A program made the position numbers and the translations under genes. DNA of 64,000 nucleotides from Labilibacter sediminis (GTDB lineage: Bacteria; Bacteroidota; Bacteroidia; Bacteroidales; Marinilabiliaceae). Location: contig NZ_VCHY01000010.1 of assembly GCF_005877885.1 (NCBI RefSeq), forward strand, positions 124,001-188,000, read 5' to 3'. A model generated the notes under the pieces. That model saw only the letters and a program-made list of their open reading frames with translations. It was not told the DNA's origin and made no database searches. Shown here piece after piece: positions 41,386 through 43,124 of the stretch (its first letter is position 1; each line of letters begins with the position of its first letter).

Positions 41386-43124
41386 TTATTCCACATCCAA
41401 ATCAAATTTATTTGTCAGTTTTAATAAGATCGGATTTTTTTCGGCCATTAACTTGGCTTTTTCTGCCGCTGTAAAGGCCTTTTTTGTATGCTGTTCATTG
41501 TGAACAATTTCTGTTTCAAGATTTAACTTCGCATTTTTAAGCTGACTTCTTAAATGTGCAAATATTCTTGTTTTCTCGGCAACTAATTCATTGTCCTGAG
41601 TTTTATTTTTCAGGCTAACATGCAGAATATATCCATCTTTTAAAACAGGCAAATGATTATTTAAAATACTGGCCAAACGTGAATTATTAGTCCCCACTTG
41701 ACGAGCATATGCCACCCATGCTTCTTTTACTTCATCTGCTGTAACCGGATTATTCCAATTTAAATCAACATATGGTAACTCTTCCTTAACTTGAACTGCT
41801 TTATCTTCTTCGGACTCTTTACCCTTGATTAAGGGCTTATCACTTTGCAGCGCGGCCTTTAATGATATTGTTTTAAGCGGACTCTTTGCAACTCCTCCTG
41901 ATATATTATTTTTTGCAACGGGTTTAGCAGGCTTGTTATTGCCTACTGGCTGAGCACCGACAGTATTTGCTTTTGGCTTACTGGATACGGAACCGTTTTT
42001 TTGCTTAGCCTTTTTTGCTACTTTTTTCTTTGTTCGTCTAAAACGCGAGCTACTTTTAGCAAGGCAAACTCTACATGCAACCTTTTGTTTTTAGCTACTC
42101 GATATTGTAAATCGCAATTATTGGTGATATCCAAGGCATCAATTAAAAAGTCGACTGAACTTTTTTGAGCCTGCACTCCGTACTTTTCTTTTACTTTAGT
42201 TCCTACATCCATCAATTGAATGGTTGCAGCATCCTTACATACCAGAATATCTCTTAAATGAGAACTTAATCCGGAAATAAAATGATGTGCATCAAATCCT
42301 CTTTTTAATATCTCATCAAAAATCAGCAAAGTTTGGGTAGTATCTTCGGCTAAAAATGCATCCACCAATCTGAAATAAAAATCGTAATCTAATACATTTA
42401 AATTATCAATGACTTGCTGGTAAGATATGCTTTTACCTGAGAAAGCAACAATCTGATCAAAAATGGATAAAGCATCACGCATAGCACCATCTGCTTTTTG
42501 CGCAATAACAGTTAGCCCTTCTTCTTCTACCTGTACTCCTTCGCTATTGGCCACATACTGCATATGATTTACAGAATCTTCAATTGTAATCCTGTTAAAA
42601 TCATAAATTTGACAACGCGACAATATAGTTGGTAGTATTTTATGCTTTTCGGTAGTTGCAAGTATAAAAATAGCGTGCTTTGGTGGTTCTTCCAGTGTTT
42701 TCAGAAAAGCATTAAAAGCCGCTTGCGACAACATGTGAACCTCATCAATAATATATACACTATAGCTACCTATTTGAGGAGGAACACGCACTTTATCTAT
42801 TAAACTACGAATATCTTCAACTGAGTTATTTGAAGCACCATCCAGCTCATGAATATTATAGGATCTGCTTTCATTAAACGACATACACGATTCGCATTCG
42901 TTACAGGCTTCAAATTCAGCAGTTATATTTGAACAGTTTATTGTTTTCGCAAAAATTCGAGCACAAGTTGTTTTTCCCACTCCACGTGGTCCACAAAAGA
43001 GGTAGGCGTGCGCTAACTGGCTACCCTTAATAGCATTTTTTAATGTTGTGGTGATATTTTGTTGCCCTACTACAGACACAAACGTTGACGGGCGATACTT
43101 ACGTGCTGATACAATATAATCCAT
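41386..43124 (-). CDS. dnaX: DNA polymerase III tau/gamma subunit, read through a -1 frameshift
   Basis: The first frame (43124-42018) codes a 368-residue ATPase: MDYIVSARKYRPSTFVSVVGQQ, Walker A GPRGVGKTT, a four-Cys zinc site CSNITAEFEACNECESC, DEVHML, SRC finger and clamp-loader domain III. It ends QRKK and TAG. The codons read AGA AAA AAG TAG, so a slippery A AAA AAG precedes the stop directly. After slipping -1 the next codon is GTA at 42021, and that frame stays open with no stop to 41386. It adds 211 residues: a Lys/Pro/Ala-rich linker and a tau-type C-terminal domain (AWVAYARQVGTNNSRLASILNNHLPVLKDGYILHVSL). Gamma would have 368 residues and tau 579, normal for the phylum. The start at 43124 is chosen over one 8 codons upstream. 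Confidence 0.9.
42021..42027 (-). other. Slippery heptamer A AAA AAG of dnaX
   Basis: The minus-strand heptamer fits X-XXY-YYZ in the dnaX frame and is identical to the E. coli dnaX slip site. The zero-frame stop TAG comes immediately after. A small ACGG-TT-CCGT hairpin lies about 24 bases downstream. Six consecutive A residues also permit transcriptional slippage. Confidence 0.72.

Follow-up and report, generated by a model that had tools for sequence, protein, structure and literature searches.

A dnaX gene split at a slippery heptamer, with a stem-loop that covaries across the genus, probably makes tau by -1 ribosomal frameshifting in Labilibacter sediminis and its close relatives

Introduction

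Tau ties the replication fork together, so that a bacterium whose tau depends on slipping gives slipping a direct role in replication. In the dnaX gene of E. coli the roles of the two frames are clear: tau is the zero-frame product and slipping yields gamma, and the slip-proneness of the site has been ascribed to a sole tRNA-Lys that pairs weakly with AAG (PMC5009743). Thermus dnaX carries an A9 run on which RNA polymerase slips (PMC1088944). A reversed two-ORF dnaX, in which the zero frame encodes just gamma, up to the shift site, and tau requires a -1 shift, forms a cluster of the 2013 GeneTack study (PMC3711429), and a review places the gamma stop of the reversed genes directly after the shift site (PMC5009743); the production of tau through recoding is thus already in print. 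Twelve of the 17 genes printed for the GeneTack cluster carry A7 to A10, and transcriptional slippage was suggested (PMC3711429). For one candidate, from Chlorobium phaeobacteroides, the review mentions potential E. coli-like stimulatory signals as unpublished (PMC5009743).

Here we describe a dnaX gene of the reversed kind in a 64,000-nucleotide stretch of the genome of Labilibacter sediminis (Marinilabiliaceae), the whole of which is called the window below, and compare its junction with those of its genus, its family and other Bacteroidota.

Results

Two frames of the window encode one DnaX

The dnaX gene lies on the minus strand of the window and consists of the following elements:

42018..43124, minus strand: dnaX zero frame (gamma, 368 aa), matched by NCBIfam NF011531 and TIGR02397 and by Pfam DNA_pol3_gamma3
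42021..42027, minus strand: slippery heptamer A AAA AAG (A6 G), from the sequence and the genus comparison
42018..42020, minus strand: zero-frame stop TAG abutting the heptamer; in the genus TAG in 6/9 genomes and TAA in 3/9
41386..42021, minus strand: dnaX -1 frame, a Lys-rich linker and the tau C-terminal domain (211 aa and TAA), from the open frame, selection and NF011531

An earlier sequence-only reading had described this gene as split, with a zero frame ending in AGA AAA AAG TAG, and both the coordinates and the model matches bear this out: the zero frame runs from ATG at 43124 to TAG at 42020-42018, and its last codons are CAA AGA AAA AAG TAG. The -1 frame is, as had been stated, free of stops from GTA at 42021 through the TAA that ends at 41386. 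A slip on the heptamer would give a product of 368+211 = 579 aa, and the sizes originally given for gamma (368 residues) and tau (579 residues) are both correct from the frames.

The gamma part (P0001) matches NF011531, the gamma/tau model, over positions 3-366 of 614 with 719 bits (cut-off 685, E 5.7e-216), and the tail (P0002) matches the same model over positions 409-613 of 614 with 76.5 bits (E 2e-21), a score below the whole-protein cut-off, as expected for a part. Since both frames match one model, they are two halves of a single DnaX. In Pfam the tail gave weak hits below the respective cut-offs (E 0.02 and 0.079), which were put down to chance.

The split and both frames are conserved in the genus

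All nine genomes of the window's genus, the window's own included, have dnaX split at the same site with the tail in the -1 frame. Aligning the junction in relatives had been proposed as a check, and the alignment shows A AAA AAG followed directly by TAG or TAA in 9/9 genomes. The codons CAA AGA AAA AAG are identical in eight of them, while the ninth (G001) reads GAA AAA AAG and so has A7.

Downstream of the junction the -1 frame holds no stop in any of these genomes, whereas the zero frame has 9-23 and the +1 frame 12-26. Over the last 130 tail codons pN/pS is 0.36 (36 genome pairs), and the differences at -1-frame codon positions 1, 2 and 3 are 0.35, 0.22 and 0.57; the zero frame of dnaX has a pN/pS of 0.08 in the genus. 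Both dnaX frames are under purifying selection. The closest of 80 named records to the window's dnaX is that of a Saccharicrinis MAG (L119), at 78% identity.

A 9-bp stem behind the heptamer covaries across the genus

RNAalifold, run on the nine genus sequences, found a 9-bp helix (stem 1) unprompted. The elements behind the junction are:

42002..42010, minus strand: stem 1, 5' arm, GGCTAAGCA, 10 nt past the heptamer, from RNAalifold and covariation
41948..41956, minus strand: stem 1, 3' arm, TGCTCAGCC; in the window 8/9 pairs form, with one internal A-C mismatch
41957..41990, minus strand: inner helix (41990-41987 with 41960-41957) and loop; in the window 3/4 pairs form
41926..41947, minus strand: possible second hairpin, AGTAGGC / GCCTGCT, adjoining stem 1 downstream

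In stem 1, 92.6% of the 81 cells are paired, and sliding the arms by 1-3 columns lowers this to 27-42%. Its 75/81 paired cells compare with 35.6 +/- 3.6 in 2000 synonymous-codon shuffles, the maximum of which was 49. Two-sided changes were seen in five of the nine pairs, in 11 cells (4.5 +/- 1.4 in shuffles, 0/500 as high), and the covariation of 0.438 likewise exceeded that of the shuffles (0.223 +/- 0.041, 0/500 as high). Two of the five covariation measures were not above the shuffles, which do not preserve the relatedness of the sequences: the number of pairs with two-sided changes (65/500) and that of further pair types (247/500).

Because stem 1 was picked for looking good, these per-helix probabilities are flattering, and a scan of the whole gene is the fairer control. 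Among the approximately 97,000 possible 9-bp helices with a span of at most 75 columns along the aligned dnaX of the genus, stem 1 ties for the most paired cells, two other helices also reaching 75. If only helices with 60 or more of the 81 cells paired are considered, its 11 two-sided changes are the highest number, followed by 7 in an unrelated helix. The 9-bp stem therefore covaries across the window's genus. The sequence-only reading had noted the absence of a strong downstream stem, which is not borne out by the comparison with relatives, though the mismatch weakens the window's copy. That copy folds modestly (z -1.63, 14/200 shuffles as low), and stem 1 of G001 forms only 6/9 pairs, a number equalled by 187/2000 synonymous shuffles.

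The neighbouring structures are less certain. The inner helix, a candidate, is conserved but shows no two-sided changes. The second hairpin is predicted in 9/9 genus genomes with sequences that differ between genomes, and its signal against synonymous shuffles is weak (mean z -0.72).

Measures of sequence constraint and folding energy were also taken. Synonymous codon differences are few in the first 20 tail columns, the stretch that holds stem 1: they number 63/412 there, against 81/289 in the next 20 and 5962/12004 in the whole zero frame. When the gene was scanned in 81 windows of 80 nt, the mean folding z was lowest just past the stop (-1.87 and -1.83). Downstream of the junction the mean folding z is -1.95 for the nine genus loci versus -0.09 for 24 of 25 others, a comparison in which G018, whose contig ends early, was left out and the genus run was entered as A6 throughout though that of G001 is A7. 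Tested against synonymous shuffles, the folding energy gives a weak signal, with z from -2.62 to +0.63 over 84 nt; over 120 nt the mean z is -1.18 in the genus and -0.52 in 50 A10 relatives, with +0.97 for G005 and -1.11 for another part of the tail. Searching with a covariance model of the stem region recovered 9/9 genus loci, as it must by construction, and 0/56 other family loci at E<0.05, the best of these having E=0.066.

The rest of the family carries an A10 run at the junction

A search of 71 family genomes at E<=1e-40 detected dnaX in 65, and the junction was read in all of these. Outside the genus the junction run is A10 in 54/56 loci, A11 in one and A9 meeting the contig end in one (G079); inside the genus it is A6 in 8/9 and A7 in G001. 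For G000, G005 and G007, in which the longest A-run lies downstream in the linker, the junction run was set by hand. In 53 of the 56 non-genus loci the zero frame terminates at the run or immediately after it, and in two (G017 and G077) the frame is continuous; G079 is outside both counts as its contig ends in the run. In a quick tree of 56 DnaX proteins, 28 of whose 53 inner branches are weak, the members of the window's genus form a single clade (SH-aLRT 99) nested within the A10 family.

In the family outside the genus, the A10 junction and the lack of hits to the stem model suggest transcriptional slippage, which these A10 relatives would then use. Since long A-runs at dnaX with slippage by the polymerase are in print, A10 transcriptional slippage is most likely the old state and the long run was most likely lost in the window's genus. 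On this comparison of genomes, the best reading is that -1 ribosomal frameshifting took over from transcriptional slippage in the window's clade.

Two irregular cases were noted among the A10 loci. In G020 (L019) A10 is followed by an in-frame TAA and then by a tail in the zero frame, possibly through an assembly error; the tail of its congener G035 is in -1, as usual. One genus contains both continuous (L020, L209) and split (L018, L211) dnaX genes, all with A10; where slipping is frequent, the tail may change frame readily.

Long A-runs are widespread at dnaX of Bacteroidota

A wider set of 135 dnaX loci across Bacteroidota (L003-L137) comprised 55 from the window's genome and its relatives and 80 named records. 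An A-run of at least 9 within codons 340-400 was present in 95/135, in split and continuous genes alike, which suggests that transcriptional slippage is widespread at dnaX in this phylum. A further 393 genomes of the order yielded a match in 375; 45 loci were read among the matches listed, 20 of them picked for a short frame, and all 21 complete split loci among those 45 have an A-run of at least 9. By open length, the tail of these 21 lies in the -1 frame in 14 and in the +1 frame in 6, one being ambiguous.

Outside the window's genus the complete split loci without an A-run of at least 9 are G037, L108 and L127. In L127 the zero frame stops at 365 aa, and no long A-run, +1 motif or adjoining long second frame was seen. 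Two candidates were rejected as split loci, L079 because it is cut by a contig end and L085 because it ends in adapter-like sequence.

Another family of the order has a +1 split at a 15-nt motif

Many split dnaX genes of the family of G037 have their tail in the +1 frame and lack a long A-run. In this family 55/59 genomes gave a match, and 30 loci (L285-L314) were read together with L057. An almost invariant 15-nt motif with sharp edges, AGGCAAYCRCRGGAG, is present in the zero frame of 27/27 split loci and 0/4 continuous ones in this set, and L108 is likewise split with AGGCAAYCRCRGGAG. The motif fills the smallest overlap of the zero and +1 frames: the +1 frame of L286 opens one base into it, and the zero-frame stop of L285 follows directly after it. 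When 30 genomes of the family were searched, AGGCAAYCRCRGGAG had one match in 17 and none in 13, and the match adjoins dnaX in 16 of the 17, that of G459 lying elsewhere. Four genomes with short dnaX frames of 371-420 aa (G463, G470, G473 and G477) gave no exact AGGCAAYCRCRGGAG match. AGG is the rarest arginine codon of these dnaX genes, making up 17/10,025 codons upstream of AGGCAAYCRCRGGAG. Judged from these sequences, AGGCAAYCRCRGGAG is likely a +1 frameshift site.

How tau is probably made in the window's genus

We consider it probable that tau is made in this genus by -1 ribosomal frameshifting at A AAA AAG, because A6 is a common run in the window's DNA and the stem could be used by the ribosome only. 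In the zero frame, translation would end directly past A AAA AAG with gamma, the AAA+ clamp-loader part, as its product. At the heptamer some ribosomes would move back by one base, a single tRNA-Lys(UUU) re-pairing from AAG to AAA, and would then read through the linker and the C-terminal domain to give tau. The stem-loop 10 nt downstream would hold the ribosome, and stem 1 would in this way raise the slip rate. The slip may also be tied to termination: stem 1 starts 7 nt past the stop codon, and this spacing fits a ribosome that slips while its P site holds AAG and its A site holds the stop.

The window's genome has four tRNA-Lys genes, all UUU, among 54 tRNA matches; no CUU tRNA-Lys was found among these 54, a set that may be incomplete, with 150/533 candidates scored in a draft genome. 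No Shine-Dalgarno-like element is conserved, by eye, in the 28 nt upstream of the heptamer in the nine sequences, which fits a phylum that seldom uses such elements (PMC8710568).

The sequence-only reading had allowed for either ribosomal or transcriptional slippage over A6. The commonness of A6 and the covarying stem favour the ribosomal half of that statement, and the evidence now leans clearly to it. In the transcriptional alternative, RNA polymerase would add one A on A6 and the altered mRNA would be read normally into tau, as has been proposed for dnaX genes with A10 and reported for Thermus. In its favour, the other family members have A10 at this position and G001 retains A7; slippage on shorter runs in some bacteria has been allowed for (PMC1088944). 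Yet the 64-kb window contains 132 A/T runs of exactly 6, two of 9 and none of 10, which makes A6 an ordinary run and an unlikely slip site for the polymerase. The genus run is shorter, and is interrupted by AGA in 8/9 genomes, yet A AAA AAG was kept. Split loci with a long A-run carry the tail in -1 or +1, whereas the genus has it only in -1 (9/9). By reasoning, moreover, a downstream RNA stem is useless to RNA polymerase, since it is still untranscribed while the polymerase is on the A-run. We regard the transcriptional alternative as unlikely for this genus.

A different doubt concerns the stem rather than the slip: the site could be functional while the stem serves another role, mRNA stability for example, or has arisen in part as a consequence of the linker being repetitive. 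The weakness of the energy-based controls speaks for this, but the stem sits right behind the slip site, its changes are compensatory, and among the 65 family loci the model matches only the genus without A10, so that we hold this to be quite improbable.

It is a little harder still to see gamma and a free tau tail as two separate proteins, the latter made through re-initiation past the stop. The tail does occupy a separate frame, in which a GTG at 41715 could start a product of 109 aa, but the -1 frame begins with GTA, which is no start codon, and the 109-aa reading would drop the linker. The model matched by gamma also covers linker and tail, and the continuous frames of G017 and G077 belong to the same family; we judge this reading very improbable. 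Finally, a sequencing error or a dying gene, for which one could cite the draft state of the window's assembly (372 contigs) and for which uninterrupted dnaX genes in relatives had been named as the sign, is hardly credible and already refuted for the genus, since the split is present in nine concurring genomes of different species, one of them in about four contigs, and both frames are under purifying selection.

Discussion

With -1 ribosomal frameshifting at the heptamer as the preferred reading, the slipping device of the window's genus would have supplanted an older A10 run on which RNA polymerase slipped. Genus and family thereby form a natural before-and-after pair of one gene, A10 without the stem versus A6 or A7 with it, which makes a change from polymerase to ribosome slipping testable with short reporters. 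A lineage that lost the A10 run has, it seems, acquired a different device for slipping, an argument for both DnaX forms being required. A broader proposal, to which we give even weight for and against, is that the order keeps the DnaX product pair and swaps the means: A10 transcriptional slippage would be the old one, -1 ribosomal frameshifting with a stem-loop that of the window's genus, and the +1 element AGGCAAYCRCRGGAG that of much of another family.

In a search of the literature on dnaX frameshifting that lay mostly within freely accessible journals, no covarying stimulatory stem for the reversed arrangement was found among the matches listed, nor was a nested change from A10 to A6 or A7 with a stem within one family; the titles and abstract starts of these matches name neither the window's lineage or family nor AGGCAAYCRCRGGAG.

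Compared with the reversed dnaX genes of GeneTack, the window's gene has the same gamma stop at the site and the same tau tail open in -1. It differs in having A6 and a covarying stem, where 12/17 of the printed genes have A7-A10. The run is A6 in the window and seven other genus genomes and reaches A7 in G001 only; as poly-A is not universal in the printed cluster, A6 alone does not exclude membership of the reversed dnaX group.

With the E. coli cassette the window shares A AAA AAG in the same phase, a downstream stem and tRNA-Lys UUU. The sequence-only reading had called the site E. coli-type, which is apt for the heptamer, the sole detected tRNA-Lys(UUU) and, contrary to that reading, the presence of a stem downstream, but the logic is reversed, as E. 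coli shifts for gamma, with about half of its ribosomes doing so, and the window's dnaX would shift for tau. E. coli also has a Shine-Dalgarno-like element (GGGAG in the control), while none is conserved in the window's genus, and the spacer between heptamer and stem is 5 nt in E. coli and 10 nt in the window.

Like the dnaX of Thermus thermophilus (A9), the window's gene would give two DnaX forms from one gene, although tau is the zero-frame product in Thermus and the window has no long A-run. A Thermus-type run of at least nine As is absent from the window's junction (A6) and present in the 56 non-genus family loci, so that it is the A10 relatives that resemble Thermus.
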